Assembly: GCF_001685355.1 (NCBI RefSeq)
Contig: NZ_CP016438.1
Span: 6,014,001-6,078,000 of the forward strand
Length of the DNA: 64,000 bases
Reading direction: 5' to 3'
Source: Streptomyces lincolnensis
GTDB taxonomy: Bacteria; Actinomycetota; Actinomycetes; Streptomycetales; Streptomycetaceae
The translations under genes were made by a program, and so were the position numbers. Shown here one piece after another: positions 39,769 to 57,783 of the stretch. The notes beneath the pieces are model-generated. The model had not been told where the DNA came from and did no database searches. It worked only from the letters and a program-made list of their open reading frames with translations. How positions within the stretch are numbered: position 1 is the first letter of the stretch; each line of letters begins with the position of its first letter.

Positions 39769-39804
39769 CGTGCGTCGGCCACCGGCCCACTGCCCGCCGT
39801 TTGC

Positions 39805-40098
39805 TTACGCCGCCCGTTCCCAGTCGCCCTGGAATCCCTCCTCCGGTGGTGGGGCGCTCCGTGACTTCTGGCGGGCGCGGAGCAGGGCCCAGGTGAGTGC
39901 GGATGCGCAGGCGAGGCACCACGGCAGTACCCACAGGGTGTGCCACCAGCGGATGTGCGGGGTGAGGGTGACGTCGAGGGCCGCTGCGGCCATGCCTACG
40001 GCCAGGCTCCAGCACAGCAGGCGGCCGGTACGGCGGACGGCTCGGGCGAGGGGGACGGTGGCGCTGTCCGGGGCGGTCATCGCGGGGACGTCCTCCAT
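39805..40098 (-). CDS. Small membrane protein of unknown function
   Basis: About 97 residues from ATG 40098 (MEDVPAMTAPDSATVPLARA); the ATG six codons later is an alternative. There are two membrane segments, GRLLCWSLAVGMAAAALDVT and WHTLWVLPWCLACASALTWA, with a charged C-terminal tail. I do not recognise it. It converges with acpS and lies alone. The 312 bases upstream, to 40410, hold no gene, only the terminator at 40373. Confidence 0.6.
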   Translation of the reverse strand: MEDVPAMTAPDSATVPLARAVRRTGRLLCWSLAVGMAAAALDVTLTPHIRWWHTLWVLPWCLACASALTWALLRARQKSRSAPPPEEGFQGDWERAA

Positions 40099-40372
40099 GA
40101 GGTCCACGGGTCCACGGGGCGGGCGACGGCCATGGACGCGGCCGCGCTCGCCGAACGGCCACAGTCTGCGGGGGTCGAGCGTCTGTGCGCACGTGTTGTC
40201 CGGAGACGGGTGTGACGTCTGAGACAACCTCAGGTCCGGGCATATGCCCACAAGTGCGTGATGGTGCCTGGCAAGCGCTTCCCCGGGCGCGAAGGGGTGG
40301 GACCGATTCCGGCCCGTTCCGCGAGGCCTGTCCCACGAGATCCGTCCGACGCGGCATGTCCGACATGGCCCA

Positions 40373-40402
40373 CCCGGGTACGGCGTCACCGCCGTACCCG
40401 GG
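40373..40402 (-). terminator. Terminator of the beta-helix gene
   Basis: CCCGGGTACGGC and GCCGTACCCGGG form a perfect 12-bp stem with a six-base loop, nine bases after the stop of the minus-strand beta-helix gene. Confidence 0.8.
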
Positions 40403-40410
40403 CCAGGACG

Positions 40411-41601
40411 TCAGCAGATCGTCTGGCTCGTGTTGACGCGGGTGATGTTGCGGAACGTCGTGTTCGTGCCGCAGGGGCTCTCGCGGATGGAGGAGTTGGT
40501 GACCGTGAGGTTCTGGATGGTGATGTCGGAGTTGTTGGGGAACTCCGAGCGGGCGGCGAGGCGGAGTTCGCCGCCGCCGGTGATGGTGCCGGACTGGGCG
40601 GCGAGGTTGACGTTGTAGCAGTTCTCGATGAGGACCGAGTTGTTGCCGGTGTTGGAGAGGGTGACGCGGTCGATGACGGCGCCGCCGCTCTCGGAGACGC
40701 AGAAGACGCCGCGTCCGCCGCCCCGGGCCATCACCTCGCCGACACGGATGTTGGTGGGGTAGCCGTTGCCGACCCTGCCGTTGCGGTTGGCCATGCGGAA
40801 GGCGGCGTAACCGGTGCCGGTGCCCGCGTTCTCGGCGTCCACCTTCGTGACGGTGGCGTTGATCGTCTGGTTCAACAGAAGCCCGGACTCGCCGACGTTC
40901 CTGGCCGTCACCGTGCCGATCGTGAGGCCGTCCACGCCGTAGGTCTCGACCGCGTGGCTGCTCGCTCCCGAGACGTACACGTTGTCGATACGGACGTTGC
41001 GCGTCCACTGGCTGGTGTCGCCGCGGTTGTCGATGCGGACGCCGAGGCCGGCCGACAGGCGCATGTCGAGCTGGCCGAGGATCACGTTCTGGACGTTGCG
41101 CAGGAAGATGCCGTAGAGCGGGCGGCCGGTGAGGGTGAGGTGCTGGACCTCGATGTCGCGGGTGCCGCGGGAGTAGACCGGGGCCTGGTCGCCGCTGCCG
41201 GAGCCGGTGACGTTGATGGTGCCGCAGACGTCGAGGGCGGTGTAGCTGGGGAGTGAGATGCGCGAGGCGGCGGAGATCGAGCCCGAACCGCGGACCACGA
41301 CCCGTTCCTTGGCCGTTCGGCCCGCGGTGAGGCTGTTGACCGCTGCCTGGACCGCGGCCCGCATGTCGGTGCCCGTGTAGACGGTGCCGCTGCCGCGGCG
41401 GGCGGTCCAGGTGCTGCCGTTGAGCACGGCCTCGGCCTGGTAGGAGCCCTCCCCGCAGGCGGCCGCCGCGGCGGGGGGCGCGGCCGCGGTGGCCGGTGCG
41501 GTCATCAGGCCCGCGGTGGTGAGGAGGGCGAGGGTGGTGGCACCGAAGAGCTTTCGCTTGCCGAAGGACTTTCGGGTGGGGAGTGCGGCTCTGCGTCCCA
41601 T
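40411..41601 (-). CDS. Secreted right-handed beta-helix protein (polysaccharide lyase-like)
   Basis: The 396-residue protein starts at ATG 41601 (MGRRAALPTRKSFGKRKLFG). A signal peptide with the hydrophobic core ATTLALLTTAGLMTAPATA follows. The rest is made of repeats typical of parallel beta-helices, such as DIEVQHLTLTGRPLYGIFLR, NVRIDNVYVSGASSHAVETY and DITIQNLTVTNSSIRESPCG. Such proteins include pectate lyases and related carbohydrate-active enzymes; I cannot identify catalytic residues with confidence. A palindromic operator lies just upstream. It is cell-free or wall-associated, probably for plant or wall polysaccharide. Confidence 0.82.
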   Translation of the reverse strand: MGRRAALPTRKSFGKRKLFGATTLALLTTAGLMTAPATAAAPPAAAAACGEGSYQAEAVLNGSTWTARRGSGTVYTGTDMRAAVQAAVNSLTAGRTAKERVVVRGSGSISAASRISLPSYTALDVCGTINVTGSGSGDQAPVYSRGTRDIEVQHLTLTGRPLYGIFLRNVQNVILGQLDMRLSAGLGVRIDNRGDTSQWTRNVRIDNVYVSGASSHAVETYGVDGLTIGTVTARNVGESGLLLNQTINATVTKVDAENAGTGTGYAAFRMANRNGRVGNGYPTNIRVGEVMARGGGRGVFCVSESGGAVIDRVTLSNTGNNSVLIENCYNVNLAAQSGTITGGGELRLAARSEFPNNSDITIQNLTVTNSSIRESPCGTNTTFRNITRVNTSQTIC

Positions 41602-41630
41602 GGGGTCCGGTCCCGTCCTGTCGTCGAACC

Positions 41631-41650
41631 GATTCGACTGAATCGATTCA
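41631..41650. promoter_or_regulatory. LacI-type operator candidate upstream of the beta-helix gene
   Basis: TGAATCGATTCA (41639-41650) is a perfect 12-bp palindrome with a central CG. It overlaps a second inverted repeat, GATTC-gact-GAATC (41631-41644). It lies 30-50 bases before the start codon. LacI-family repressors of sugar genes use sites of this form; no LacI gene is in the window. Confidence 0.5.
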
Positions 41651-41721
41651 TGCTGTGAGGGCCCGGAGTTTGGCAAAGCGGCGGCAAAGCGTCAATGGGG
41701 TGGGCGGGACCGGTCTTTCAC

Positions 41722-41776: not shown

Positions 41777-41782
41777 GCGCCG

Positions 41783-41826: not shown

Positions 41827-41840
41827 GGTGCGCTCGGGGC

Positions 41841-42260
41841 TCAGGCGGCCGCGCGGGCCGCCAGGCGCTGGGGGCAGATCCGGTCGCCGGGCGGGACGGC
41901 CCGCTCGCGGAGTTCGCCGAGCCGGTCGAGCAACTCGGCGCGGACCCGGGCGAGATCGTCGATCCGCCCCTGGATCACGGCGAGCCGCTGCTCGAACACG
42001 GCGATCTTGGCACCGGGGTCCGCGCAGCTGTGGTCGCTCAGCAACTCGTCGCGCAGGCAGCCGTCGATGAGCAGCAGGTCCTCCGTGGTGAGGCCGGCCG
42101 CCAGGAGCAGCCGGATGTTCTCCACGACCTGTACGGCGTCCGGACCGTAGGTGCGGTAGCCGTTCGAGGTGCGCTCGGGGTGCAGCAGTCCGTGTTCCTC
42201 GTAGTACCGCAGTGCGCGGGTGGTGGTGCCGGTGGTGTGCGCGAGTTCCCCGATGCGCAT
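41841..42260 (-). CDS. MerR family regulator
   Basis: The 139-residue protein starts MRIGELAHTTGTTTRALRYY, the winged-helix DNA-binding domain (about 1-70), followed by EEHGLLHPERTSNGYRTYG and a coiled coil (FEQRLAVIQGRIDDLARVRA). A CL-type pair of cysteines is present (IDGCLRDELLSDHSCADPG), but the family ligand cannot be deduced. It is the second gene after the MFS pump (31-base gap), and a MerR-type promoter precedes the pump. Confidence 0.9.
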   Translation of the reverse strand: MRIGELAHTTGTTTRALRYYEEHGLLHPERTSNGYRTYGPDAVQVVENIRLLLAAGLTTEDLLLIDGCLRDELLSDHSCADPGAKIAVFEQRLAVIQGRIDDLARVRAELLDRLGELRERAVPPGDRICPQRLAARAAA

Positions 42261-42291
42261 GAGGGTTCCTTTCCGAGAGGGTGGGGGAGGG

Positions 42292-43560
42292 TCAGACGGC
42301 GCCTTCGCTCACCTGCTGTGCCGGTGCGGGCCGGGCCGCCGGTTCCTCCACGGCCTCGGCCGCCGCCGTACGACGGCGTTCCCCCGCGGCCTCGCCGAGG
42401 GCGAACACCAGGGCGACGAGGGCGACCGCGCCGCCGACCACCGGCAGCCAGCGCAGCCCGGCGCCCCCGGCGATGACCCGGCCGCCGAGCCAGCCGCCCA
42501 GCGCCGTACCGAGGTTGAACGCCGAGCTCTGCACGGTCAGCGCCAGGGTGCGGGCCTGCTGGGAGGCCACGTTGAGCAGACGGGTGTTCACCGCAGGCAT
42601 GACCGCGTAGTAGGCGGCGCCGAACAGGAACAGGAAGCCCACCGCCACGTACTTGAGGCCGGTCGTCGCGCCCAGGAGCAGCAGCGAGACCATCAGGGCC
42701 GCCACGGAGGCCGAGACGGCACCGAGCACCGAGCGGTCGGTGAGCCGGCCGCCGATCAGGTTGCCGACCGTGCCGCCGATGCCGAACAGCAGCAGGAGCA
42801 CGGTGACCGCGGACTCGCCGAAGCCGACGGCGTCGGTGAGCAGCGGAGTGACGTACGTGTAGGCGGTGAAGGACGCGGCGGCGCACAGCGCGGTGATCCC
42901 GGTGACGAGTTGCACCCGGCGGTCGCCGAGGACCTTGAGCTCCTTCAGCCGGCCCTGGTCCTCGTCGGCGGAGATGCCCGCGGTGTCGGGGGCGAGGGCG
43001 GCGACGGGCACGGTGATCGCGAGGGTCAGCACGGCGACCGCCCAGAAGGTGGCACGCCAGTCCAGCCACTGCCCGAGGGCCGTACCGATGGGCAGACCGG
43101 CGATCATCGCGAGGCTGAAGCCCAGCGAGACCCGGGCGACCGCCATGCCCCGCTTGTGCGGCGGCACGATGTCCGCCGCGATGCCGAAGAACAGCGGCAT
43201 CAGCGCGGAGTGGGCCAGGGCGGCGATGATCCGGCCGCCGGCCAGCGGCCAGAACGAGGGCGCCACGGCGGACACGACGTTGCCGAGGACGTAGACGATC
43301 ATCAGGCCGACCAGCAGCCGGCGGCGGCGCGCCCGCCCGGTGGTCAGGGCGAGGACCGGGCCGCCGATGACGACGGTCAGGGCGAAGGAGCTGACGAGCA
43401 GGCCCGCGGTGGACAGGGAGACACCGGCGTCGGCGGCGATGTCGGGCAGCAGGCCGGCGATCATGATCTCGCCCGTGCCGAGGGTGAACGAGCACAGGGT
43501 GAGAAGGGTCAGGGCCCAGGTGGTGCCCCGCTCGGTGGGGGGATTCGGTGATGTGGTCAT
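42292..43560 (-). CDS. MFS drug/sugar efflux transporter
   Basis: The 422-residue transporter has 12 predicted membrane helices: TTWALTLLTLCSFTLGTGEI in the first, then LVSSFALTVVIGGPVLALTT and motif-A-like GRARRRRLLVGLMIVYVLGN. It resembles the DHA1 group of proton-driven efflux pumps (Cmx/arabinose-efflux-like). I chose ATG 43560; ATG 43572 is in frame four codons earlier. A dyad at 43577 suggests leaderless expression under the MerR regulator encoded downstream. It could export the product of the neighbouring cyclitol cluster or a GBL. Confidence 0.88.
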   Translation of the reverse strand: MTTSPNPPTERGTTWALTLLTLCSFTLGTGEIMIAGLLPDIAADAGVSLSTAGLLVSSFALTVVIGGPVLALTTGRARRRRLLVGLMIVYVLGNVVSAVAPSFWPLAGGRIIAALAHSALMPLFFGIAADIVPPHKRGMAVARVSLGFSLAMIAGLPIGTALGQWLDWRATFWAVAVLTLAITVPVAALAPDTAGISADEDQGRLKELKVLGDRRVQLVTGITALCAAASFTAYTYVTPLLTDAVGFGESAVTVLLLLFGIGGTVGNLIGGRLTDRSVLGAVSASVAALMVSLLLLGATTGLKYVAVGFLFLFGAAYYAVMPAVNTRLLNVASQQARTLALTVQSSAFNLGTALGGWLGGRVIAGGAGLRWLPVVGGAVALVALVFALGEAAGERRRTAAAEAVEEPAARPAPAQQVSEGAV

Positions 43561-43576
43561 GGGTGGCAGCATCAAC

Positions 43577-43625: not shown

Positions 43626-44627
43626 TCAGGCCGCGCCGCATCTGTCCAGCGGGAGCGGGGCGCTCGCGGCGGGCTCGGCGGCCAGGGCGACGGACGCGGT
43701 GAAGCACTCCCGGTCGTGCTGCCGGGCCGTCACCAGCAGCCGGTCGGGGGCGGCGGGGTCGGGCGCGGTCTCCACCCAGCAGGGGGCGTCGAACTCGACG
43801 TACCGGGAGAACCGGGTGGTCATACCGACGGCGCGGGCCGGGCGGACGGGCGAGGCCGCGTGGGCGGCCTGGCGGGCCGCGTCGATCAGCAGCATCCCGG
43901 GGACGTGGTCCACGTCGTGGTCGAAGAGGACGGGATGGCCGGTGTCGACGCGCAGCCGGTGGCGGCCGGGGATGTCCGTGGGGGACAGCACGACGTCGTA
44001 CGGCCGCGACCGGCCTGCCTCCGGCGCGGCGAGCGGGGTGGGCGGGGGCAGGCGGCGCTCCAGGGCGTGGGCGATGTCGGCGTACTCGCCGCGCAGTCGC
44101 CGGTAGACCGCCGGGGTCTGGATGGAGAACCGCGTGGTCGCGGTGCCTATGAGGCGGTCGCCCTGGAGGGCGCGGATACGGACCGTGGCGGCACTGGCCC
44201 GGGTGCCGCGGCGGGTGACGTCGTGGCAGCCGGCGTGCAGGACGATCTCGTGGGGCGCGTCGTGCGGGCGGTCGGACGCGGGGGTGAGGGCGGGGGTGGC
44301 GCAGGAGGCGGCCGGGTCGTCCGTGGCGAGTTCGTAGTCGTAGGTCTCCCACAGCAGATGGTGGCCGAGGGGGACCTCGTAGGCCGCGTGCGACAGCGTC
44401 GGTAGGCACTGGCGGATCGTTTCTCCGAAGAGCAGCGGATCGATGCCGGCCGTTCTGGTGGTGTAGAAGGGGTGGACCTCCGGCCAGCGGGCCCTGATCA
44501 GGAAACTGTCGGGGCCGGTGCGCCGCCAGGAGGTGAGGAGTGTCTCGTCCGCGTTGCGCTTGTGGCTGTAACTCTGCGGAACGGGGGCCCACGGTGACGG
44601 AGTCGGGTCCTGGTGGGTCCGGGTCAT
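43626..44627 (-). CDS. AfsA-type gamma-butyrolactone synthase
   Basis: The 333-residue protein belongs to the AfsA/ScbA family, which joins dihydroxyacetone phosphate and a beta-ketoacyl chain to start GBL signal synthesis. The start MTRTHQDPTPSPWAPVPQSY is followed by the first AfsA hotdog repeat (about 20-150, with HKRNADETLLTSWRRTGPDS) and the second (about 195-320, with VLFDHDVDHVPGMLLIDAAR, then YVEFDAPCWVE). GAGGGAGC is the ribosome site. It is divergent from an ArpA-type receptor gene, the standard synthase-receptor pair. Confidence 0.9.
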   Translation of the reverse strand: MTRTHQDPTPSPWAPVPQSYSHKRNADETLLTSWRRTGPDSFLIRARWPEVHPFYTTRTAGIDPLLFGETIRQCLPTLSHAAYEVPLGHHLLWETYDYELATDDPAASCATPALTPASDRPHDAPHEIVLHAGCHDVTRRGTRASAATVRIRALQGDRLIGTATTRFSIQTPAVYRRLRGEYADIAHALERRLPPPTPLAAPEAGRSRPYDVVLSPTDIPGRHRLRVDTGHPVLFDHDVDHVPGMLLIDAARQAAHAASPVRPARAVGMTTRFSRYVEFDAPCWVETAPDPAAPDRLLVTARQHDRECFTASVALAAEPAASAPLPLDRCGAA

Positions 44628-44725: not shown

Positions 44726-44756
44726 TACTATAAAGGGCGATCGTTTTGTTTTTGCG
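44726..44756. promoter_or_regulatory. Candidate GBL-receptor operator (ARE), site 1
   Basis: CGATCGTTTTGTTT (44738-44751), inside AAAGGGCGATCGTTTTG, starts seven bases after a TACTAT box (44726-44731) that could be the -10 of the receptor gene. The same motif, one base different and in the same orientation, occurs at 46445 before the LysR gene. AT-rich inverted sites in front of receptor genes are typical autoregulatory elements of ArpA-family repressors. Confidence 0.6.
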
Positions 44757-44788: not shown

Positions 44789-45415
44789 ATGACACGGCCC
44801 AAGCAGGAGCGCGCGGTCCGTACCCGGGAGGCGATCCTGACGGCGGCGGCCGAGGTCTTCGACGAGTTCGGGTACTCGGCCGCGGGCGTCAGCAGGATCC
44901 TGCAACGGGCGGGGGTCACGCAGGGCGCGATGTACTTCCACTTCAAGTCCAAGGAGGACCTCGGCCGGTCGGTGCTCGTGGAGCAGGCCTCCACGCTCAA
45001 CCTGCCCGACGAGCCCGCCGGACTCCAGCAGCTGATCGACGTGACCCTCTATCTGGGTTTCGAGCTGAAGCGGAACGTGCTGCTGCGGGCCGGGGTGCGG
45101 CTGGCCGTGGAGCAGGGTGAGGCCGGGCTGCGGGACTTCACCGTCTACCGCTGGTGGATCGCCCGCTTCCGGGCCGAGCTGGACGTCGCCGAGCGGCGAG
45201 GTGAGCTGTTGCCCCAGGTCGACGGCGCGGAGTTCGCCCGGGTCCTGGTCGGCGCCTTCACCGGCACCCAGCTGATGTCCCATCTGGAGAACGACCGGGA
45301 GGACCTGCCCGCCCAGATCGCGGTGCTGTGGAACTACCTGCTGCCGGGGGTCGCCACCCCCGCCGTCCTGGCCCGGCTGACCGTGGACGTGGAGCGCGGG
45401 AAGGCGATGCTGTGA
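44789..45415 (+). CDS. ArpA/ScbR-type gamma-butyrolactone receptor (TetR family)
   Basis: The 208-residue repressor starts at ATG 44789 (MTRPKQERAVRTREAILTAA). The HTH is at about 29-52 (SAAGVSRILQRAGVTQGAMY), followed by FHFKSKEDLGRSVLVEQA, the combination typical of GBL receptors. The ligand domain contains DFTVYRWWIARFRAELD with the conserved Trp pair of the binding pocket. It probably represses itself and other genes until the GBL appears. Its stop overlaps the epimerase start by four bases (GTGA). Confidence 0.92.
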   Translation: MTRPKQERAVRTREAILTAAAEVFDEFGYSAAGVSRILQRAGVTQGAMYFHFKSKEDLGRSVLVEQASTLNLPDEPAGLQQLIDVTLYLGFELKRNVLLRAGVRLAVEQGEAGLRDFTVYRWWIARFRAELDVAERRGELLPQVDGAEFARVLVGAFTGTQLMSHLENDREDLPAQIAVLWNYLLPGVATPAVLARLTVDVERGKAML

Positions 45416-46392
45416 GCGGGGTGAACGTCCTGCTCACCGGGGCCACCGGGTTCGTCGGCTCGGCCGTGCTGCGCGCGCTGTCGGCGGCCGCCGCCGACGG
45501 CGCCGACTTCTCGGTGCGGGCCGTCGTGCGCACCGCGCCGGCCGGCCAGGAGCAGCTGCCCGGCGTGACCTGGGCCCGTGCCGACCTCACGGAGCCGGGC
45601 TCGCTGCACGGCCTCGGCACCGGCTGTGACCTGCTGCTCCACCTCGCCGCCCGGGTCGGCGGCGACGAGGACGCCTGCACGACGGTGAACGTGGGCGGGA
45701 CGAGCGCGCTGCTCGGCGAGGCCCGCCGCGCCGGCGTCGGGCGGATCCTACTGCTGTCCACGGCCGCCGTGTACGGCGCCGGGCCGCACCGGGGCATCCC
45801 GGTCGACGGGGTCGAGCCCGCGCCGGTCTCCGCGGCCAGCCGCACCCGGCTGGCCGCCGAGCGGCTGGTGCTGGCCGCCGGGGGGACCGTGCTGCGGCCC
45901 GGGCTGGTCCTGGGTACCGGGGACCGGTGGGTGGTGCCCGCGCTGGCCGAGCTCGCGGAGCGGGTGCCGGCCCGCTGGGGCGGCGGGCGGGGGCGGCTGT
46001 CCGTGGTGGACGTGCGGGACCTCGCCCGGCTGATCGTGGCGCTCGCCCTCGCCGTACGGCTGCCGGGTGGGGTGCATCACGCCAGTCACCCGGAGCCGGT
46101 GCGGGTCGGCGAGCTGCTCTCATGGCTCGCCGGGCACGGGGTGCTGCCCGAGGTCTCCGGGCGGGACTGGCCGATCGAGCGGTGCGTGGCGGAGCTGGGG
46201 CGGACGCCGGGGCGGGTCAGCGAGCGTCAGTTCCGGTTGCTGTCCGAGGACCACTGGTACGACAGCGGGGAGATCTGGCGGTTCGCCGACTGCCCGCCCG
46301 GGCCCGGACCGCTGGCGGGGCTGGCGGACGCGGCCGGCTGGTACCGGGCGCTGACGGGCTCCACGGGCCCCTCCGCCCCCTCCAGCCGGTAG
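45412..46392 (+). CDS. NAD-dependent epimerase/dehydratase (possible GBL-pathway reductase)
   Basis: An extended SDR of about 326 residues. The Rossmann motif is VLLTGATGFVGSAVLRAL near residues 6-23, then LLHLAARVG and LLLSTAAVYGAGPHRG. The catalytic-loop Tyr-x3-Lys is not obvious: the place reads SAASRTRLAAERLVLAAGG, with no Tyr, so the Ser-Tyr-Lys triad may be altered. It starts at GTG 45412, overlapping the receptor stop, so its dose is tied to the receptor. Similar SDRs sit beside AfsA homologues in other clusters (JadW2-like), where they are placed in GBL synthesis; that is inference here. Confidence 0.75.
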   Translation: MSGVNVLLTGATGFVGSAVLRALSAAAADGADFSVRAVVRTAPAGQEQLPGVTWARADLTEPGSLHGLGTGCDLLLHLAARVGGDEDACTTVNVGGTSALLGEARRAGVGRILLLSTAAVYGAGPHRGIPVDGVEPAPVSAASRTRLAAERLVLAAGGTVLRPGLVLGTGDRWVVPALAELAERVPARWGGGRGRLSVVDVRDLARLIVALALAVRLPGGVHHASHPEPVRVGELLSWLAGHGVLPEVSGRDWPIERCVAELGRTPGRVSERQFRLLSEDHWYDSGEIWRFADCPPGPGPLAGLADAAGWYRALTGSTGPSAPSSR

Positions 46393-46433: not shown

Positions 46434-46465
46434 ACTTTGCAAAACGATCGTTCTGTTTGTAATTT
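46434..46465. promoter_or_regulatory. Candidate GBL-receptor operator (ARE), site 2
   Basis: The core CGATCGTTCTGTTT at 46445-46458 lies in the near-palindrome TGCAAAACGATCGTTCTG, then TTTGTAA. It differs by one base from site 1 and is in the same orientation. It lies about 65 bases before the LysR start, in the region where its promoter should be, so the receptor probably controls this regulator. Confidence 0.62.
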
Positions 46466-46526: not shown

Positions 46527-47414
46527 GTGCGCGCAATATCGCCCCACCAGGCGGCCGTCGCGGACATAGGCATACGCCATCTGCGGGCCTTCCTCGTGCT
46601 GGCCGAGCAGTTGAGCTTCACCCAGGCCGCTGCCTCCCTGCACACCACCCAGCCCTCCCTGACCCGGTCCATCCACCGGCTCGAAGAGGCCCTGGGCGCA
46701 CGGCTCTTCCACCGCACCACCCGTCATGTGCGGCTCAGCGAATCCGGTGTGCTGCTGCGGGAGGAGCTCAAGGAGCTGTTGCCCCGTCTGGAGTCCGTGC
46801 TGACACCGCGCCACGACATCCAGACCCTGCGGATCGGCTTCAGCTGGCTCTTCCCCGACGAGCTCCTCCAGAACGCCATCGCCGGTTTCGAGCGGACCTA
46901 CGGCGTCGCCGTCGACCTCGTCCGCCGGGACGAGCGGTGCGCGGGGCTGGACGAGGGCGCCGTCCAGCTGGCCGTGCTGCGGGGCCGGCAGCCCGCCCGG
47001 GGGCTGCGCACCGTGCGGATCGCCCAGGAGGAGCGGGTCGCCGCCGTGTCCCGAAGATCCCCGCTGGCCCGTCGGCGCAGCCTCGACTGGACCGAGTTCG
47101 CCGAGCACCCCGTCATGATCAACACCGTGAGCGGTGCCACACAGGTGCGGGACTGGCCGGAGGAGGCCAGGCCCGGCACGGTGACGCTGTGCGGCGGCTT
47201 CGTCGAGTGGCTGGAGCTGATCGCGGAGGGGCGCGGGATCGGTGTCGCGCCCGACCTGGTGATGCGCCGCAATCCGCATCCCGGGGTCCGGTTCATCCCG
47301 ATCACCGAGGCCCCGCCGATGCCGCTGTGGCTGGCCCGCCCCTCGACCGGCGCCCACCCGCTGGCGATCCGCTTCATGGAACGCGCCGTCGCGGTACGGC
47401 AGGCGGCGGCCTGA
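46527..47414 (+). CDS. LysR family regulator
   Basis: The 295-residue regulator starts at GTG 46527. The winged helix lies at about 16-75 (IRHLRAFLVLAEQLSFTQAA, then TTQPSLTRSIHRLEEALG), and a substrate-binding domain follows from about 98. It is next to the GBL genes and carries an ARE-like site upstream, so it fits as a pathway regulator for the convergent cyclitol operon. A bidirectional terminator separates it from that operon. Confidence 0.9.
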   Translation: MRAISPHQAAVADIGIRHLRAFLVLAEQLSFTQAAASLHTTQPSLTRSIHRLEEALGARLFHRTTRHVRLSESGVLLREELKELLPRLESVLTPRHDIQTLRIGFSWLFPDELLQNAIAGFERTYGVAVDLVRRDERCAGLDEGAVQLAVLRGRQPARGLRTVRIAQEERVAAVSRRSPLARRRSLDWTEFAEHPVMINTVSGATQVRDWPEEARPGTVTLCGGFVEWLELIAEGRGIGVAPDLVMRRNPHPGVRFIPITEAPPMPLWLARPSTGAHPLAIRFMERAVAVRQAAA

Positions 47415-50532: not shown

Positions 50533-51428
50533 ACGGCTGCCTCATTCGGGTCGAGTGGTTCGGGGTGCGGTGCGAAGCTCGCGGCACGGGCCCGCGCCCA
50601 GGCGAGATCGCGGAGCGGGAGGTCGAACTCCCCGCCGTGGTGGCCGGTCTCCCGGTAGTCGTTCTCCAGGACCAGCGCGCGCGGGACGGGGCCGAACGCG
50701 GCCACGGCGTCGAGCACCTCCGTCAGGCGGCCCTCGCCGGCGCCGAGGGGGGCGCTCGCCGGCACCCCGGCGTGACCGTCCTTGAGATGGATCTGGTCGG
50801 CGAGGTGCGGCCCGACGGCCACCACCCAGCGCACCGGGTCGTGCCCGGCCGCGCACAGGTTGTACGGGTCGAGGAGCAGCCGGAAGGCCGGCGAGCCGAC
50901 CTCCTCGGCCAGCGCCCTCGCCCGGGGAGCCGCCAGGACGTTCTCGCTCGCGAGCGTCAGCCCGCGGGCGGCGGCCTCCTCGGCGGCCCAGGACAGGATC
51001 CGGGCGGTGCGCCGGAAGTCGTCCGGACTCTCGACGGCGCTGCGCCGGAAGCTGGGCAGGAACACCAGCGGTACGCCCAGCTCACGGGCCGCGTCCAGCG
51101 CTCGTACGACCACCGCCCTGGCCAGGGTGGCATCGGCGCTGTCCGGACGGGCCGTGAGTCCGATGTCGTTGAGCGTGTTGGCGGTCAGCCCGAGCAGGGC
51201 GACACCGGTCTCGGCGCTCGCCCGGAGCGTGGCCGCGACCGTGCCGGGGGCGTCGGCCCGGGGACCGCGCCCCGGCCCGCCGAGGTCGAGCTGCACCCCG
51301 TCGGCCGCGAGCCGTGCCGCACACCGCACCGCCTCCTCTGCGCCCGCCACGGGCAGCCGCCAGGAGGTGAGGGCGACGACCGGGGCCGGGGGCGGCGTGC
51401 CGGGCGCGGTGATGCCGGGCGTGGTCAT
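50529..51428 (-). CDS. Sugar phosphate isomerase/epimerase (TIM barrel)
   Basis: The 299-residue protein belongs to the xylose-isomerase-like/AP endonuclease 2 fold. Conserved metal-site segments are LTLASENVLAAPRARALAEE (Glu), FRLLLDPYNLCAAGHDPVRW (Asp, His) and HLADQIHLKDGHAGVPASAP (His, Lys, Asp), with LVLENDY (Glu) late. It probably epimerises or isomerises the cyclitol or its phosphate. It overlaps its neighbours on both sides by four bases, so it belongs firmly to the operon. Confidence 0.86.
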   Translation of the reverse strand: MTTPGITAPGTPPPAPVVALTSWRLPVAGAEEAVRCAARLAADGVQLDLGGPGRGPRADAPGTVAATLRASAETGVALLGLTANTLNDIGLTARPDSADATLARAVVVRALDAARELGVPLVFLPSFRRSAVESPDDFRRTARILSWAAEEAAARGLTLASENVLAAPRARALAEEVGSPAFRLLLDPYNLCAAGHDPVRWVVAVGPHLADQIHLKDGHAGVPASAPLGAGEGRLTEVLDAVAAFGPVPRALVLENDYRETGHHGGEFDLPLRDLAWARARAASFAPHPEPLDPNEAAV

Positions 51429-52189
51429 GCCGGGACCCCGCGGCTCTGGGAGACCGGGACGTCCACCCGCACGGAGTGCCACCGGCCGTACTCGTCCACG
51501 ACCAGGCTGTCGCCGTGGTGCTCGGCGCCGCCCCGCGTGACCAGCTCGTGGGCCAGCTCGGCGAAGTGCTCCGGGCGCATGTACGTGCCGTAGTCGAAGC
51601 CGGCGGGCCGGCGGCGGCGGATGCCGGGGGTGTCGACCATGCCCGCCGGGAGCGCCTGCACGATCCGGACGCCGTCCGAGCCCTCCTCCTGGGCGACCGA
51701 GTCGAGCAGCGCGGCGGCCGCGGCCTTGGTCGCCGCGTAACCGGAGCGGCCCGGACCGGCGTTGTAGACCACCTCGGAGGAGATGCCGAGGAACAGCCCG
51801 GACCGTGCGCGCCGCAGCACGGGGAGGGTGGCCGACAGCGTCAGCCACAGGCCGTGCAGGTTCACCTCCGTCTGCCGGCGCCACTCGGTCTCCTCGACCT
51901 CCCCGAAGGGGGCGCGCCGGGTGCCGTAGGACACGGCCGAGTAGCAGACGGCGTGCAGCGGCTCGGCCGCCGCGCCGTCGAGGGCCGTACGGGTCGCCTC
52001 GGCGTCGGACAGGTCCAGCGGGGCCCAGCGCAGCAGCTCCGCTCCCTCACCCGAGGGCTCGCTGCGGCTGAGCACCAGGACGTCGAGTCCGGACCGCGCC
52101 CAGGACTCGGCGACCGCGCGGCCGATGCCGGTCGAGCCGCCGACGACCAGGGCGCGACGGGGGGCCGGTGGAGGCGGGGGGACGGTCAT
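51425..52189 (-). CDS. Short-chain dehydrogenase/reductase
   Basis: The 254-residue classical SDR has LVVGGSTGIGRAVAESW (TGxxxGxG) and the YxxxK site in SGYAATKAAAAALLD, with the catalytic Ser in FLGISSEVVYNAG. It is likely to reduce or oxidise a cyclitol hydroxyl. It sits between the alcohol dehydrogenase (47 bases) and the isomerase (four-base overlap). A Pro-rich stretch after the start (MTVPPPPPAPRRA) is unusual but harmless. Confidence 0.9.
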   Translation of the reverse strand: MTVPPPPPAPRRALVVGGSTGIGRAVAESWARSGLDVLVLSRSEPSGEGAELLRWAPLDLSDAEATRTALDGAAAEPLHAVCYSAVSYGTRRAPFGEVEETEWRRQTEVNLHGLWLTLSATLPVLRRARSGLFLGISSEVVYNAGPGRSGYAATKAAAAALLDSVAQEEGSDGVRIVQALPAGMVDTPGIRRRRPAGFDYGTYMRPEHFAELAHELVTRGGAEHHGDSLVVDEYGRWHSVRVDVPVSQSRGVPA

Positions 52190-52236: not shown

Positions 52237-53403
52237 TCAGACGGCCGACGCGGTCGGAGCAGGCGTGGTGGGGACGGCGGAGCGGTCCGGTGCGACGCGT
52301 ACCGCGAGCTTGATCAGGCGGCGGCCCCGCCAGGTGCGGTCACGGTGGGCCGCGAGGTGCCGCATGATGTCGGCGGCCTCGTCGAGGTCGGCGACATGGG
52401 TGACCAGGTCGCGGTACCGCTCCGGTGCCGCCGCCAACTCGGCCGCCGCGTCCCGCAGATGACGCTCCGCCACCCCGCGGTGCCCGAACAGCCGCACCGG
52501 GGCGCCGGTGTCGGTGAGGGCCCGCGCGATGCGCGGCACCGCGGGCCGGCCGCCGCAGTTGGCCGCGCGGACGGCGGCCAGCTCCACGCCGGGCAGCAGC
52601 GGACTCGTGGCGTCGGCGGGCAGCCCGCCGAGCAGGTCGACGACCAGTTCCCCGGGCACGGCCCGCACCGCCGTCTCCAGGCAGCGCAGGGTCGCGTCGC
52701 GCGGTGTGGCGAGCAGCACGGCCGCGGGGGCGTCGCCGACCGCGGCACGCAGGGCCTCGCCGCCCTCGGCCGCCGTGAGCAGCACGTCCGCCCGGTGCGC
52801 CCGGTGTTCGCTCCAGGCGCGTCCCGCGTCCGTGCGGTGGACGTGCACGGTGCGCACCCCGGGGCCGAGCAGGCGCCCGGCCGCCCGGACGGCGAGGTGC
52901 CCGACCGTGCCGTCGCCGAAGACGGCGAGCGTGCCGACCCCCATCCGCTCCAGGACCGAGAACGCGTACCGCACCGTCGCCAACGGCTCCAGCAGCGCGG
53001 CCAGATCACCCGGGGCGAGGGACTGGGGCAACGGCGTCACCAGCCCGGCGCGCACCGCGCTCTGCGGGATCAGCGTGCGCTCCTGGAGCAGGCCGTCGAC
53101 ATGGTGGCCGAGCAGGAAGGACGGGTCGTCCGGATGGGTCGGGTTGACCACGACCCGGGTCCCGGGCGCGAGAGCCGGGTCCGCGTCGGGCCCCGCCGCG
53201 ACGACCAGCGCCGAGCCCTCGTGCCCGATCACGGGCGCCGGGTCACCGCGCAGTCCGCGCAGCATCTGGAGATCCGTACCGCACAGCCCGGCGGTCTGCG
53301 GCGCGAGGAGGACCTCGCCGGCCACGGGGCGCGGGGTGGGGCGCAGTTCCACCCGGATCCGCCGGCCGTCCCGGACGATGGCCCGGTGCAGGGCCGCGCT
53401 CAT
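52237..53403 (-). CDS. Zinc-type alcohol dehydrogenase (MDR)
   Basis: The 388-residue protein begins MSAALHRAIVRDGRRIRVEL. The catalytic-zinc ligands are visible as AGLCGTDLQMLRG and VIGHEGSALVVAAG. The nucleotide-binding motif is LAVFGDGTVGHLAVRAAGRL. The four-cysteine structural zinc loop of classical ADHs is missing (VVVNPTHPDDPSFLLGHHVD at that place), as in cyclitol/inosamine-type dehydrogenases. Overlap with the kinase by four bases couples the two. Confidence 0.86.
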   Translation of the reverse strand: MSAALHRAIVRDGRRIRVELRPTPRPVAGEVLLAPQTAGLCGTDLQMLRGLRGDPAPVIGHEGSALVVAAGPDADPALAPGTRVVVNPTHPDDPSFLLGHHVDGLLQERTLIPQSAVRAGLVTPLPQSLAPGDLAALLEPLATVRYAFSVLERMGVGTLAVFGDGTVGHLAVRAAGRLLGPGVRTVHVHRTDAGRAWSEHRAHRADVLLTAAEGGEALRAAVGDAPAAVLLATPRDATLRCLETAVRAVPGELVVDLLGGLPADATSPLLPGVELAAVRAANCGGRPAVPRIARALTDTGAPVRLFGHRGVAERHLRDAAAELAAAPERYRDLVTHVADLDEAADIMRHLAAHRDRTWRGRRLIKLAVRVAPDRSAVPTTPAPTASAV

Positions 53404-54479
53404 CGGAAGGCTCCTGTCAGGTGAGGGGCGGGCGCCGGCGGAATGCCGTCGGCATCGGGCGCGTGGGCGGCGAGGCCCGCGCCGATCAGCGGGTCCGCCT
53501 CGCCGGGGCGGGACGTGGTCAGGCGGCGGGCGGCCCAGTCGGGGGACCGGTCGGCGGTGAGGTAGAGGCCGGCACGGGTCAGATGCGCCAGCAGCGCGCG
53601 GCGGACGTGGTCGCCGAGGCCGTACACCACACCGCCCGTCAGGACGATCTCGTCGAGCTCCGGGTCCAGGCACAGCGCGGTGCGCAGCACCTGGGCGAGC
53701 GGCTCGGTGGCCGCCGCGAGCAGCACCTCGGCGGTCGTGGAGCCCGCGTCCAGCGCGGACCGCAGCGTGTCCTCGAAGGAGGCCTCCGCCCCGGCCCGCC
53801 CGAACGCCGAGGCGGCCCAGCGCTCCGGGTTCCGCGCCCGCGTCAGCTCGGCCAGCCGCCGGATACCGGGGCCGGAGGAGTACGCGGCGACATGGCCGGC
53901 GCTCCCGCAGTCGCACAGCCGGGCCTCGACGGGGCCCAGCGCGGCCGGTACCGCGGCCGGCAGGTGGCCGATCTCGCCCTGGAGCCCGCACTCGTCCACC
54001 GCGACGGTGCCCGTGCGCAGGTCCAGGGTGCGGGCCGCGATGCCCGTGCTGACCGTGACCAGGAGAAGCTTGCGCAGGGTGCGCCGGTGCGGTGCGGCGG
54101 CCGCGTGCAGCAGTGCCGCCGTCACGTCGTTGACGAGGTGCCAGGCGACCTCCGGCCGGGCCGACCGCAACGCGCCGAGCAGGTCGAAGGGTTCGGTGTG
54201 CGCGCCCCACAGGGGGGCGGAGGCGTACACGGTGCCCGTACGGTGGTCCAGCGCCGCGCCGAACGACACCCCGGCCCGGGTCACGCCCGCCGGCACCGCC
54301 GCGCACAGCGCGTCCACCATCCGCCGCCGCACCTCCCGCACGGGCAGGTCCGGGTGGGTCCGCACACTCGGCGACGGCCCGTCGACCAGGTCGCGCAGAC
54401 CCCGCTCGGGCGACCACAGGGCCCGGCGCAGGCGGGTGCCGCCCACGTCGACCACGGCGATCTCGTCGTGCCGGGTCAC
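53400..54479 (-). CDS. ROK-family kinase (cyclitol kinase candidate)
   Basis: The 359-residue kinase starts at GTG 54479, overlapping the cyclase stop. The phosphate-binding motif IAVVDVGGTRLRRAL is at about 7-21, the second GT-type motif is LLVTVSTGIAARTLDL, and the ROK zinc motif appears as LCDCGSAGHVAAYSSG. The usual Cys and Glu of CxCGxxGCxE are replaced by His and Ala. In validamycin synthesis the ROK-type ValC phosphorylates the C7 cyclitol at O7; an equivalent role fits here. About 1.1 kb, coupled to both neighbours. Confidence 0.84.
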   Translation of the reverse strand: MTRHDEIAVVDVGGTRLRRALWSPERGLRDLVDGPSPSVRTHPDLPVREVRRRMVDALCAAVPAGVTRAGVSFGAALDHRTGTVYASAPLWGAHTEPFDLLGALRSARPEVAWHLVNDVTAALLHAAAAPHRRTLRKLLLVTVSTGIAARTLDLRTGTVAVDECGLQGEIGHLPAAVPAALGPVEARLCDCGSAGHVAAYSSGPGIRRLAELTRARNPERWAASAFGRAGAEASFEDTLRSALDAGSTTAEVLLAAATEPLAQVLRTALCLDPELDEIVLTGGVVYGLGDHVRRALLAHLTRAGLYLTADRSPDWAARRLTTSRPGEADPLIGAGLAAHAPDADGIPPAPAPHLTGAFR

Positions 54480-55735
54480 GACGCCACGGCCAGCAGGTCG
54501 GTGTCCTTCGCGTCCTCGGCGGTGCCCAGGGCGCCAGCGCGCTGGCGTACGAACGCGCGGGCGCGGTCCAGCTCGTCGCGGGTCAGGTCGTTGACGAACC
54601 GCACCCGGCCGATGCCGTCCGTCAGGGGCATGCGCTGGAGGCCGTCGCGGTGCTTGACCGCGTCCCGCAGAGCCTCTTCGAGCAGGTCGGTCGTGAACAC
54701 GGGGTGGGTGAGCGGGAGCCCCGCGGTGTGCATCAGCCGCAGCGCGCGGTCGGCGTCCTCGGCGGACAGCAGACCGCGGTGGTGGGCGAGCGCCACGCAG
54801 ATCGCCATGTCGACGGCGACCGCCTCGCCGTGCAACAGCGGGGGATCGGCGCGCAGTTCGAGCGAGGGGCTGAAGGTGTGGCCGTAGTCGACCGACCGCT
54901 CCAGCACCTGCTCCCACAGGTTGGGCTCCAGCTCGTCGAGCATCCCGGCGATGGACCGGGAGATCACCTCGGTGGCGACCGGCCCGCCGGCGGCCAGGCT
55001 CTGCGGTCCGGCGCCGGTGACGGTGGCCTCCAGGAGGCCGAACAGCGTGGCGTCCTTGACCAGGGCCATCTTGATGATCTCGGCCAGACCGTTGACGATG
55101 TGCCGCGGCTCCACGGTGGCGAGGAACTCCGGGTCCATCAGGGCGGTCTCGGGCGCGTAGTAGGTGCCGAGACGGTTCTTGTGGGTGCCGTGGTTGACCC
55201 CGGTCTTGACGCCGATGCCCGCGTCGATCTGCCCCAGCAGGGTGGTGGGGACCCGGACGTAGGGGACCCCGCGCCGGTACAGGCTGGCGGCGAACCCGGC
55301 CACGTCGAGGACCACGCCGCCGCCGATCGCGACGATCTTCTCGGTACGGCGCAGCAGGCCCATCGCCGTCATCGCCTCGGTCACCTCGACGGCGCTCTCC
55401 AGCTCCTTCGCCGCCTCGTCGCCGGGCAGCACCTTCCAGAAGGACTCCACGCGCCAGGCGTCCAGGTAGGCGCGGACGCGGTCGCCGTAGAGCGTGTGGA
55501 CCTTGTCGTCGACGACCACCAGGCAGCGGGTCGGGGTCTGTCCGTCGGCGCCGCAGGCGCGGGCGAGGGCCGGGTTGGCCGGGTCGAGCAGCCCGCGTAC
55601 GACGTGCACGTCGTAGCCGACCGGCTCACGGGACTGCACCCGCCAGGTCAGGCCGGGCGGTTTGGGCAGGTCGACGGGGGTGGCGAAGACGGGAGCGGCG
55701 GGGGTGGGGGAGGGAGCCGGGGTGGCGAGAGACAT
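54476..55735 (-). CDS. Sugar phosphate cyclase, 2-epi-5-epi-valiolone synthase-like
   Basis: The 419-residue protein is a dehydroquinate synthase-fold cyclase. NAD and metal motifs are EKIVAIGGGVVLDVAGFAAS, VPTTLLGQIDAGIGVKTGVN, then HKNRLGTYYAPETALMDPEF and HGEAVAVDM. The active-site stretch SVDYGHTFSP (281-290) has Asp where dehydroquinate synthases have Asn and Pro where they have the last His, the pattern of 2-epi-5-epi-valiolone synthases (AcbC/ValA type). They cyclise sedoheptulose-7-phosphate to a C7 cyclitol. It follows the FAD-oxidase gene by 125 bases and is coupled to the kinase. Confidence 0.88.
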   Translation of the reverse strand: MSLATPAPSPTPAAPVFATPVDLPKPPGLTWRVQSREPVGYDVHVVRGLLDPANPALARACGADGQTPTRCLVVVDDKVHTLYGDRVRAYLDAWRVESFWKVLPGDEAAKELESAVEVTEAMTAMGLLRRTEKIVAIGGGVVLDVAGFAASLYRRGVPYVRVPTTLLGQIDAGIGVKTGVNHGTHKNRLGTYYAPETALMDPEFLATVEPRHIVNGLAEIIKMALVKDATLFGLLEATVTGAGPQSLAAGGPVATEVISRSIAGMLDELEPNLWEQVLERSVDYGHTFSPSLELRADPPLLHGEAVAVDMAICVALAHHRGLLSAEDADRALRLMHTAGLPLTHPVFTTDLLEEALRDAVKHRDGLQRMPLTDGIGRVRFVNDLTRDELDRARAFVRQRAGALGTAEDAKDTDLLAVAS

Positions 55736-55860
55736 GGCGCATCCTCGTTCCTGACGGACCGGCACCCCTGGGGGCGCCTTCCGTCGATCGGGAAGGGTCG
55801 GCAGGTCGATGGGGAAAGCGGCACGCGGACGTGCGGCGGCGATGACGGCGGTACGGGCGC

Positions 55861-57504
55861 TCAGGTCCTGACGGACTGGCGGTGCCGGAAGACGTCGCGG
55901 GGGTCCCAGCGCCGCTTGACCTGCTGCAGGCGCCGGTAGTTCCCCTTGAAGTAGAGGTCGTGCCAGGGCACGGACGAGCGGTTGTACCGGGGGTCGCCGA
56001 GGTCGGAGTCGGGGTAGTTCACGTAGCAGCCGTCGGTCCGCCCGTCGGGGACCGGCACTCCGCCGGTGCCGGCGTACACGTCCGCGTAGACCCCGCGTAC
56101 CCAGGCGATGTTGGCGGCGTCGTCGCTCTCGTCGTACCAGTACGTCTCGTAGGTGACCTTCATGATCGAGTCGCGCTGGGCCACGGCCGTCGCGGCCGGG
56201 TCGACCTCGCCGATCCGCCCGCCCGCGGACGGGATGACCAGCCCGGCGATCCGGGCGTTCTGCGGGGACCGGGTCAGGTGCTCGTAGACCGCCTCGATCT
56301 GCTGCCGGGTGAACGGCCTGCGGTGGTACGCCGACTTGTGCTTGCCGCGCATGTTCGGGTCGGTCTGGGTCGGGCTGACCGTGCCCACGTACTGGGTGGC
56401 ACGCAGCCAGGGCAGCCGCTGGGTGGTGGCGTACGCCGACCGGTGCGTCCCGCCGGTGCGCTCGGGTACGCCCGGTGTGTCGCTGACGCCGAGGGCCCGG
56501 TTCAGGCCCGTGAGGAAGTCGGTCAGCAGGCGCGGGGCGTCCGGGACCGTCGCGTCGAGCTGGGCGATCAGGGCGATGTCGCCGGCCGACTGGTGGTTGG
56601 GCATCAGCCAGACGCACATGTCCTTGTACGGCGACGTGACGTCCTTGTGCCGCTCCAGCCAGGAGCCGTAGAACTCCAGCAGCCCGACGAAACCGGCCTT
56701 GCTGACGTCCTCCCAGGGCCACGACGCCATCGTCACGAAGACCTCGGCGGGCGGCCTCGGCAGCAGCCCGCCCGGATCCGGGCCGTCGCTGCCGGGCGTG
56801 CGGAACCAGTACTTCGTGATCACCCCGAAGTTGCCGCCGCCCGCGCCGGTGTGGGCCCAGAACAGGTCGTGGTGGGGGTCGGACGGGTCCCGGCCGGCCA
56901 CGACGCTGCGGGCCCGGCCGGTGTCGTCGACGACCACCACCTCCACGGCGTCGAGGTGGTCGACGGTCAGACCGTGGGCGCGGGAGAGCATTCCGTACCC
57001 GCCGCCGCTGACATGACCGCCGACGCCGACGGAATAGCAGGCGCCGCCGGGAATGGTGACGCCCCAGCCCTCGTAGAGGGTTTCGTAGACGTGGAGCAGC
57101 GTGGCCCCGCCCTCCACGGCGAACGCCCGGCGTTCCTCGTCGAAGGAAACGCCGTTCATCCGCGACATGTTGATGACGACCTCGACCTCGGAATGGAAGA
57201 CGAAGTCCTCGAAGCAGTGTCCGCCGCCCCGGATGCTGATGCGCTTGTCGCGGTCCACCGCGTCCTGCACCAGCTCGACGACCTGGCGTGTCGTCGTCGG
57301 CAGCGCGATGCGTTCCGGAGCCGCGACCCAGCGCTGGTTCAGGCCGGATATCAGGTCGCCGTAGCGGGCGTCGTCCGGCGTCACGGTGACCGCGGCCGCG
57401 CCGGCCGGGGCCGCGGTGGCGGAACCCGTCATCAGGCCGGCGCCGACGCCGACGGCGGCAGCGGACCCGGAGAAGAGCAGACGGCGACGATTCATCGAAC
57501 TCAT
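55861..57504 (-). CDS. Tat-exported FAD-linked oxidoreductase, berberine-bridge-enzyme-like
   Basis: I start at ATG 57504, preceded by a GGGGGG ribosome site, giving 547 residues. The Tat signal MSSMNRRRLLFSGSAAAVGV ends in AxA near residue 30. The FAD domain follows. Both covalent flavin anchors are present: His 96 in IRGGGHCFEDF and Cys 156 in GGACYSVGVGGHVSGGGYG. The C-terminal BBE segment is GCYVNYPDSDLGDPRYN, then WHDLYFKGNYRRLQQVKRRW. It should oxidise a sugar- or cyclitol-like alcohol outside the cell. First gene of the cyclitol operon direction. Confidence 0.9.
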   Translation of the reverse strand: MSSMNRRRLLFSGSAAAVGVGAGLMTGSATAAPAGAAAVTVTPDDARYGDLISGLNQRWVAAPERIALPTTTRQVVELVQDAVDRDKRISIRGGGHCFEDFVFHSEVEVVINMSRMNGVSFDEERRAFAVEGGATLLHVYETLYEGWGVTIPGGACYSVGVGGHVSGGGYGMLSRAHGLTVDHLDAVEVVVVDDTGRARSVVAGRDPSDPHHDLFWAHTGAGGGNFGVITKYWFRTPGSDGPDPGGLLPRPPAEVFVTMASWPWEDVSKAGFVGLLEFYGSWLERHKDVTSPYKDMCVWLMPNHQSAGDIALIAQLDATVPDAPRLLTDFLTGLNRALGVSDTPGVPERTGGTHRSAYATTQRLPWLRATQYVGTVSPTQTDPNMRGKHKSAYHRRPFTRQQIEAVYEHLTRSPQNARIAGLVIPSAGGRIGEVDPAATAVAQRDSIMKVTYETYWYDESDDAANIAWVRGVYADVYAGTGGVPVPDGRTDGCYVNYPDSDLGDPRYNRSSVPWHDLYFKGNYRRLQQVKRRWDPRDVFRHRQSVRT

Positions 57505-57783
57505 GCGGTAAAGCCCCCCGTTCACGATCGAACCCCCTTGTCAGGCGATTCCCGAGGAACGTAGAACGGCGTCCCGCACCGACACAAATGCCTGATCCGG
57601 AGCGCTTATTCGCATGCCGTATTACTCGTTCGGCTCATGCGGGCGGCGCAAGAAACAGTGGCGTAAATCAGCGGGTGGGCGCTGTGCAGTGCCCTCCTTT
57701 CCGCTTTCCCCGCACCCATTCATACGTCCGGGGAAAAAGTCCGAGAAGGCCGCCGGGGGCGCCGGTGCGGCACACTCGGTCGC

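Follow-up and report, generated by a model that had tools for sequence, protein, structure and literature searches.

A putative signal-controlled C7-cyclitol cassette inserted beside nnrD in Streptomyces lincolnensis

Genes Between acpS and nnrD

This report concerns a block of 15 genes, running from a merR gene to a gene for a berberine-bridge-type (BBE) oxidase, that combines a butyrolactone-type signal system with a predicted C7-cyclitol operon and lies between acpS and nnrD in a 64,000-nucleotide stretch of the Streptomyces lincolnensis chromosome (NZ_CP016438.1, positions 6,014,001 to 6,078,000; hereafter the window). The two flanking genes are on the plus strand (acpS at 39397-39768, nnrD at 57784-59307) and 18,015 bp separate them, which agrees with the order and the spacing of about 18 kb given in the first-pass annotation of this DNA, made from the sequence alone. 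The gene types that the annotation had named in the interval were all recognized by profile matches, one of them below its cut-off, and the operon that it described is confirmed as nine minus-strand enzyme genes, the first of which, for the BBE oxidase, starts at 57525 and the last, for a luciferase-like oxidoreductase, ends at 47502. The features are as follows:

39397..39768, plus strand: acpS, left housekeeping flank (Pfam ACPS, 55.6 bits)
40411..41601, minus strand: secreted beta-helix protein, a resident of the interval that lies outside the insert (Pfam Beta_helix, 23.1 bits, below the cut-off of 25.9)
41666..41698: final segment that still aligns with the empty site in relatives, marking the left end of the insert
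41,699-57,756: inserted DNA, 16.06 kb; the part common to other copies spans 41,835-57,675 at its widest
41841..42260, minus strand: MerR regulator (Pfam MerR_1, 67.9 bits)
42292..43560, minus strand: MFS exporter, Cmx/CmrA-like (NCBIfam cmx_cmrA, 300 bits, below the cut-off of 400)
43626..44627, minus strand: AfsA/ScbA-type butyrolactone synthase, probable start ATG at 44627 (PF03756, 113.6 bits in two stretches; NF041195 (ScbA/BarX), 308.9 bits, cut-off 200)
44738..44753, plus strand: putative receptor operator 1 (motif)
44789..45415, plus strand: ArpA/AvaR1-type TetR receptor (TetR_N; AvaR1 6wp7, 158.8 bits)
45412..46392, plus strand: NAD-dependent epimerase/SDR, overlapping the receptor gene and presumed to tailor the signal (Pfam Epimerase, 86.3 bits)
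46445..46460, plus strand: putative receptor operator 2, upstream of lysR (motif)
46527..47414, plus strand: LysR regulator, presumed pathway activator (LysR_substrate, 83.6 bits; HTH_1, 74 bits)
47502..48341, minus strand: luciferase-like oxidoreductase, F420-dependent type (TIGR03619, 226.2 bits, cut-off 166.9)
48478..49776, minus strand: beta-lactamase-family hydrolase/esterase (Pfam Beta-lactamase, 172.7 bits)
49828..50532, minus strand: HAD enzyme of sugar-phosphatase type, probably SLCG_5038 (Pfam Hydrolase, 77.3 bits)
50529..51428, minus strand: TIM-barrel enzyme of sugar-phosphate epimerase type, predicted C7-cyclitol 2-epimerase (PF01261, AP_endonuc_2, 74.7 bits)
51425..52189, minus strand: SDR with a predicted AcbN role (adh_short, 89 bits)
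52237..53403, minus strand: alcohol dehydrogenase (ADH) of AcbL/SalM type, probably SLCG_5041 (ADH_N, 37.9 bits)
53400..54479, minus strand: ROK-family kinase with a predicted AcbM/ValC role (Pfam ROK, 46.6 bits)
54476..55735, minus strand: DHQS-like cyclase, ValA-like (ValA 4p53, 400.2 bits)
55861..57525, minus strand: BBE-type FAD oxidase whose N-terminus looks twin-arginine-like by eye (FAD_binding_4, 86.6 bits; BBE, 65.4 bits)
57608..57622: LysR-type box upstream of the nine-enzyme operon (ATACG-N5-CGTAT, one mismatch)
57784..59307, plus strand: nnrD, right flank (Carb_kinase, 164.7 bits; YjeF_N, 121.2 bits), homologous to the empty site from 57757

Four-base overlaps join the cyclase gene to the ROK gene, the ROK gene to the ADH gene, the SDR gene to the TIM-barrel gene and the TIM-barrel gene to the HAD gene, and they look as they would in a single transcript. 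The insertion site lies in a core region of the chromosome, since fusA, ribosomal-protein genes, secY and rpoA, together with phosphoglucomutase-type and glmS-type genes, occupy the left part of the window; on the other side nnrD is followed by a YkuD gene and alr. An acyltransferase-3 gene (4211-5548) stands between the fusA-containing block and the ribosomal-protein genes.

Insertion at the Beta-Helix/nnrD Junction

The beta-helix gene predates the insert. At three of the 12 acpS-nnrD loci that were compared (genomes G124, G009, and G026; loci L009, L010, and L014), a homologue 89-91% identical stands directly beside nnrD in the same orientation and the rest is absent; the left edge of 39,769 proposed in the first-pass annotation is therefore wrong. 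The match between these empty sites and the window ends at 41,698 and restarts at 57,757 (57,765 against G026), so that the insert extends from about 41,699 to 57,756. Between the corresponding points in G124 and G009 there are 42-43 bp, in the place of which the insert stands. Relative to these relatives, then, a cassette is inserted between the beta-helix gene and nnrD; the insertion is computed from the alignments, and its route is conjecture, homologous recombination in the flanks, as suggested at the first pass, being one possibility.

The marks of a self-mobile island (integrase or transposase, tRNA target, attachment repeats) were not found: ARAGORN detected no tRNA in the window, Pfam matched no integrase or transposase among the scanned open reading frames (ORFs) of the insert, and between 41601-41850 and 57601-57800 the longest direct repeat is 9 bp and the longest inverted repeat 8 bp. 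The same absence had been noted at the first pass and is borne out. Base composition was considered as proof of foreign origin and is uninformative, the G+C content of the insert (73.9%) being close to that of the right flank (74.0%).

The rarity of such a spacing was surveyed by locating acpS and nnrD in 150 genomes of the genus, S. lincolnensis included, of which 136 could be scored (both genes in the listed rows and on one contig); the 14 left unscored comprise genome G135 and 13 others in which one gene was unlisted or lay on another contig, and where an nnrD match started late the gap was estimated via the query offset. The genes share a strand in 120 of the 136, with at most 200 bp between them in 78, 1 kb in 96, 3 kb in 114, and 6 kb in 117, and the same-strand gaps beyond 6 kb are those of G045 (6.0 kb), G141 (16.3 kb), and S. 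lincolnensis (18.0 kb); in the other 16 they lie on opposite strands, 36-9,020 bp apart. The gap is at most 9.0 kb in 134 of the 135 other scorable genomes, G141 being the sole exception and the only other genome above 10 kb, and the comparison upholds the earlier proposal of an accessory insertion. The 16.3-kb block of G141 (L006, G141:C2:6174000-6193500) encodes a DUF4132 protein, an Mce/MlaD-type operon with an ABC ATPase, a sigma factor, and a transglycosylase, cargo that is unrelated to the cassette. Because a different block of about 16 kb stands there in G141, the acpS-nnrD interval appears permissive for insertion within a ribosomal/cell-wall core region.

The Same Block at Other Sites

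Among named genomes, a scan returned 22 loci with a related cyclase, and in three of the species, S. tibetensis XZ 46, S. cyaneochromogenes MK-45, and S. fumanus JCM 4477, all 15 genes are present in the same order and orientation. DNA similarity to the window ends at 41,835-41,906 on the left and at 57,421-57,675 on the right, and the outer DNA differs in each species; in S. cyaneochromogenes (G049) the acpS-nnrD gap is 630 bp. Since the same block stands at different places in three related species, the signal system and the pathway appear to travel as one unit. The ten flanking ORFs scanned around the copies in the three species were ordinary and included no integrase or transposase. The cassette is rare in the genus: a cyclase with E at most 1e-150 occurs in five of 392 genomes, two of which (S. 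lincolnensis and G049) have the cassette version, and a cyclase at 90% identity in one genome of the 392 besides S. lincolnensis.

Two further modes of spread were considered and rejected. For tRNA-borne integration, the merR end of the S. cyaneochromogenes copy is about 120 bp from a tRNA-Met gene, and no second copy of an 18-mer taken from that tRNA was found in the bbe-side flank that was searched (L037, L082). For a plasmid origin, matches to the cassette DNA were found in two of 72,556 plasmid records and covered 1-3% of it, and cyclase relatives below 60% identity occur in 115 plasmid records. Separately, ARAGORN called a tRNA-Arg (cct) in the merR/MFS gap of S. tibetensis (L078:14611-14692) and another near an MFS gene in L052 (7615-7690), both possibly false, and none in the merR/MFS gap of the window.

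An older history has to be weighed here, in which the cassette would be ancestral in the lineage, lost in most species, and relocated by rearrangement, with no horizontal acquisition. Its proteins are 73-91% identical to those of S. cyaneochromogenes, much as acpS (92%) and nnrD (86% over 135-504) are, and the match in G+C content with the right flank suits such a history as well. Set against it are the near-confinement of the 90%-identical cyclase to one other genome of the genus, the three close relatives that keep the beta-helix/nnrD junction with no trace of the cassette, and the four different sites in four genomes, and we regard an ancestral cassette as unlikely.

Cyclitol Enzymes and the Predicted Product

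Compared with solved structures, the cyclase scores 400.2 bits with ValA (4p53), 229.6 with 5tpr, and 99.3 with 2-deoxy-scyllo-inosose synthase, scores that do not tell EEVS from EVS. Two residues by which EEVS differs from related enzymes were also numbered on the printed alignment; the numbers disagreed with those expected, and no residue fingerprint is claimed. The companions of a C7-cyclitol cluster (kinase, epimerase, and oxidoreductases in one operon) are present as the ROK, TIM-barrel, ADH, and SDR genes, with their overlaps. The TIM-barrel enzyme is predicted to fold as an alpha/beta protein (pLDDT 88.6), and its residues Glu162, Asp187, His214, and Glu255 are invariant in 19 aligned relatives; this Glu/Asp/His/Glu metal-site pattern we take to be that of keto-sugar 3-epimerases.

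The steps of the operon can be assigned by analogy with acarbose, for which the available texts of PMC9200736 and PMC7081202 give the order AcbC cyclase, AcbM ROK-like kinase, AcbO epimerase, AcbL, AcbN, and the HAD phosphatase AcbJ. We infer from this order that the cyclase would convert sedoheptulose 7-phosphate to 2-epi-5-epi-valiolone, which the ROK kinase would phosphorylate to its 7-phosphate and the TIM-barrel enzyme would convert to the 2-epimer; the alcohol dehydrogenase step may then yield valienone 7-phosphate, which the SDR would reduce to valienol 7-phosphate, and the HAD phosphatase would release a free C7 carbasugar. The luciferase-like enzyme, the hydrolase, and the BBE oxidase, the last of them exported, might then alter this product, and the MFS protein might carry it out of the cell.

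The core enzymes are also those of precursor supply for acarbose and validamycin, and the operon might make only part of a larger C7N aminocyclitol or pseudo-oligosaccharide of that kind, finished by genes elsewhere. No aminotransferase, nucleotidyltransferase, or glycosyltransferase family was matched by Pfam in the ORFs scanned within the insert, and the aminotransferase and/or pseudoglycosyltransferase of a validamycin- or acarbose-type C7N-aminocyclitol cluster is accordingly missing from them; a HAD phosphatase and an exporter are present, and S. lincolnensis is reported in the available text of PMC10717218 to make free C7 carbasugars. A larger molecule is on this evidence quite improbable. 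A degradative role, in which the nine enzymes would break down cyclitols or sugar phosphates for growth, draws on the occurrence of ROK kinases, TIM-barrel epimerases, dehydrogenases, and HAD enzymes in catabolic operons too, and SLCG_5038 and SLCG_5041 are partly read as glucose-utilization genes in PMC10717218, as far as its available text goes; a ValA-like cyclase makes a ring rather than breaking one, however, and an efflux-type MFS protein under signal control suits secretion, and we give this role very little credence.

Signal System, Putative Operators, and Proposed Circuit

The synthase belongs to the AfsA family (NF041195 and PF03756, with the scores listed above), and a receptor gene of the ArpA/ScbR class stands beside afsA and diverges from it. 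Among solved structures the receptor scores 158.8 bits with AvaR1 (6wp7), 145.7 with the gamma-butyrolactone receptor 5xaz, and 72.6 with CprB. In an alignment of the four cassettes, a common 16-bp motif is seen in the afsA/receptor gap and ahead of lysR; a butyrolactone operator consensus served only as the first probe, and the motif reported here was read from the aligned sequences. The pattern CGATCGTTYTGTTTKT matches the window twice, with no match expected in shuffles, and its 14-base core has two sites in the 10.3-Mb genome, both of them in the cassette, a reversed control giving no match. Both putative operators are exact in S. tibetensis and S. cyaneochromogenes, and such recurrence in other species is a stronger argument for them than the shuffle statistics. 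Upstream of the BBE gene, the palindrome ATACG-N5-CGTAT, of LysR type, is exact in two species.

These elements suggest a circuit in which AfsA would make a butyrolactone-type signal, the ArpA/AvaR1-type receptor would keep both the receptor/afsA promoter and that of lysR repressed for as long as the signal is scarce, and LysR would then turn on the operon that runs leftward from the BBE gene. On balance, and with moderate confidence, we read the insert at the beta-helix/nnrD junction as a self-contained accessory cassette with an AfsA/ArpA-type switch acting through a LysR activator on a nine-enzyme C7-cyclitol operon.

Several results count against this reading. The cassette is as diverged between species as are core genes, and the role of the TIM-barrel enzyme as an epimerase leans on metal-site residues of other epimerases. 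The operator motif came to light by inspecting the sequences, and the gap regions were for that reason compared with shuffles: without a G+C limit there are 10 similar motif pairs in the real regions and at least one in 55 of 60 shuffles; under a limit of 6 G/C the real pair drops out; and limits of 7 and 8 G/C, chosen afterwards, left a pair in 6 and 14 of 1500 shuffles, respectively. S. fumanus has one putative operator with two mismatches and a diverged second that is visible only by alignment, and at two mismatches no copy of the motif was found in L046, L047, L048, L049, or L052, loci where an afsA gene is linked to the cyclitol core. The LysR-type box of the window itself has one mismatch, no match at one mismatch was found in S. 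fumanus, and that LysR binds at the operon is conjecture.

Recurrent Association of AfsA With the Cyclitol Core

Around the 22 cyclases, a ROK gene is present in 22 loci, a dehydrogenase gene in 21, a TIM-barrel gene in 20 (L046 being cut by a contig end), a HAD gene in 14, and an SDR gene in 13. AfsA is encoded near the core operon in eight of these loci (the three cassettes, L046, L047, L049, L052, and L048, whose contig continues as L150). Of the five genus genomes with a cyclase at E<=1e-150, AfsA lies no more than about 11 kb from it in S. lincolnensis, G049, G285, and G341, and in G160 the two are on different contigs. The first-pass view that such a pairing is uncommon was thus overstated, given the whole 15-gene copies in three other species and AfsA near the same core elsewhere.

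In a tree of 38 AfsA rows, the eight linked AfsAs fall in one clade (100/98). A larger tree of 65 rows included the nearest AfsAs from the 392 genomes (L145, with no full match, was left out, and three duplicate rows were removed, including L152, identical to L129); here ten linked AfsAs fall in three places, against a mean of 9.5 changes after shuffling, with none of 500 shuffles as low as three. A single origin of the pairing was rejected because the larger tree splits the linked AfsAs in three, a split forced by well-supported branches, and the three changes may also reflect fewer gains with losses. The association is recurrent, AfsAs of three lineages lying near the core, and is not obligatory, as afsA-receptor-epimerase triads without cyclitol genes exist (L154, L155, L157, and L158). 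S. cyaneochromogenes also has a second cyclitol operon (L062, G049:C1:535000-554900), ordered ROK-ADH-SDR-TIM-HAD-cyclase, with the cyclase last and 48% identical.

Such free-standing triads agree with another account, in which the butyrolactone system would be a passenger, or would regulate globally (lincomycin production or differentiation, for instance), and the cyclitol operon would lie outside its control. Butyrolactone receptors can have targets far from their own genes. The available text of PMC6819324 treats the pair in relation to lincomycin. The core of the putative operator occurs nowhere else in the genome, however, the 15 genes stay together in four species, and AfsAs of three lineages lie near the core operon; a passenger or global role without control of the operon is, in our judgment, rather doubtful.

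The local circuit preferred here allows a wider and more tentative proposal, which we advance as a possibility short of an even chance: that a private-channel signal is inherited as a single unit together with its controlled pathway and a dedicated operator, that this unit moves between sites and species without mobility genes, and that at least three butyrolactone lineages have become attached to the travelling core. In all three pairwise comparisons AfsA has the lowest identity among the 15 proteins (73%, 68%, and 55%, against 90%, 86%, and 75% for the receptor), and the signal may thus diversify under a pathway that remains the same. Attachment of at least three lineages to the same core would, if true, imply that selection favors placing a C7 carbasugar under density control. 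With a fast-diverging synthase beside a conserved receptor, the four natural copies, each at its own site, offer a comparison for change of signal specificity under a kept pathway.

Published Record and Comparison With Known Systems

SLCG_5038 (HAD) and SLCG_5041 (AcbL/SalM-like) of S. lincolnensis are part of a predicted C7-cyclitol biosynthetic gene cluster, and four C7 carbasugars from the species are cited (PMC10717218, available text, citing Sedmera 2009). That cluster is very probably this locus: its HAD and AcbL-like genes are three numbers apart, like the HAD and ADH genes here; its HAD protein is given as 84% identical to that of S. cyaneochromogenes in Table 1 of that paper, the window HAD being 83.6% identical; and the gene number per Mb is 831 both for the SLCG_7083 guide site (with its protospacer-adjacent motif, an exact match at 8.5218 Mb) and for the HAD-ADH stretch. 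That guide site is likewise exact in G151 and differs by one mismatch in G140 and G141, and by itself it is no proof of identity. The insertion, the 15-gene unit, its other copies, and the adjoining AfsA/receptor pair are not described in the available text of PMC10717218.

Two butyrolactone systems are listed for S. lincolnensis, the second of which, SLINC_5093/SLINC_5094, is discussed with regard to lincomycin as having a role that needs further research (PMC6819324, available text). Two full-length AfsA genes are present in the genome (7.85 and 6.06 Mb), that of the cassette being the divergent one, and SLINC_5093/SLINC_5094 are probably the afsA/receptor pair of the cassette; the available text of PMC6819324 leaves their role open and mentions no cyclitol genes. 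A partial AfsA match also occurs in a 127-residue open frame at G000:C1:3110339-3110464. The C7-cyclitol cluster and the second butyrolactone pair are thus each already in print, separately, and no published link between them was found in a search mostly outside the subscription literature. The present analysis adds the 15 genes as a travelling unit, the junctions of that unit, the two putative operators, and the repeated pairing of the core with AfsAs of different lineages. The analysis names a likely target for the butyrolactone system left open in PMC6819324, in a lincomycin producer, and gives a predicted C7-cyclitol cluster defined ends and a switch open to test, consisting of two putative operators, a single activator, and a single operon.

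The core order cyclase-ROK-dehydrogenase-SDR-epimerase is shared with two proteobacterial loci. On plasmid pRvVAR031a of the alphaproteobacterium Agrobacterium vitis VAR03-1 (L159, 502773-519930) a divergent LysR gene and an MFS gene stand beside the core, with an IS21 helper gene nearby, and the second locus is in the gammaproteobacterium Prodigiosinella confusarubida LacA (L059; cyclase 54% identical). These differ from the cassette in that no AfsA or butyrolactone receptor was seen at either, and their cyclases are 54-57% identical to its own.

With the acarbose (acb) cluster of Actinoplanes sp. SE50/110, likened by family, the cassette shares the cyclase, ROK-family kinase, 2-epimerase, AcbL-type dehydrogenase, reductase, and HAD phosphatase (PMC9200736 and PMC7081202, available texts). 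Counterparts of AcbU, AcbR, AcbI, and AcbS were not found among the scanned cassette genes, and the cassette adds the BBE, luciferase-like, and hydrolase genes. Control of validamycin by a butyrolactone receptor in S. hygroscopicus 5008 was reportedly described by Tan et al. in 2015; the likeness to the circuit proposed here, as far as that account is available, is that of signal receptors acting on a C7-cyclitol pathway.

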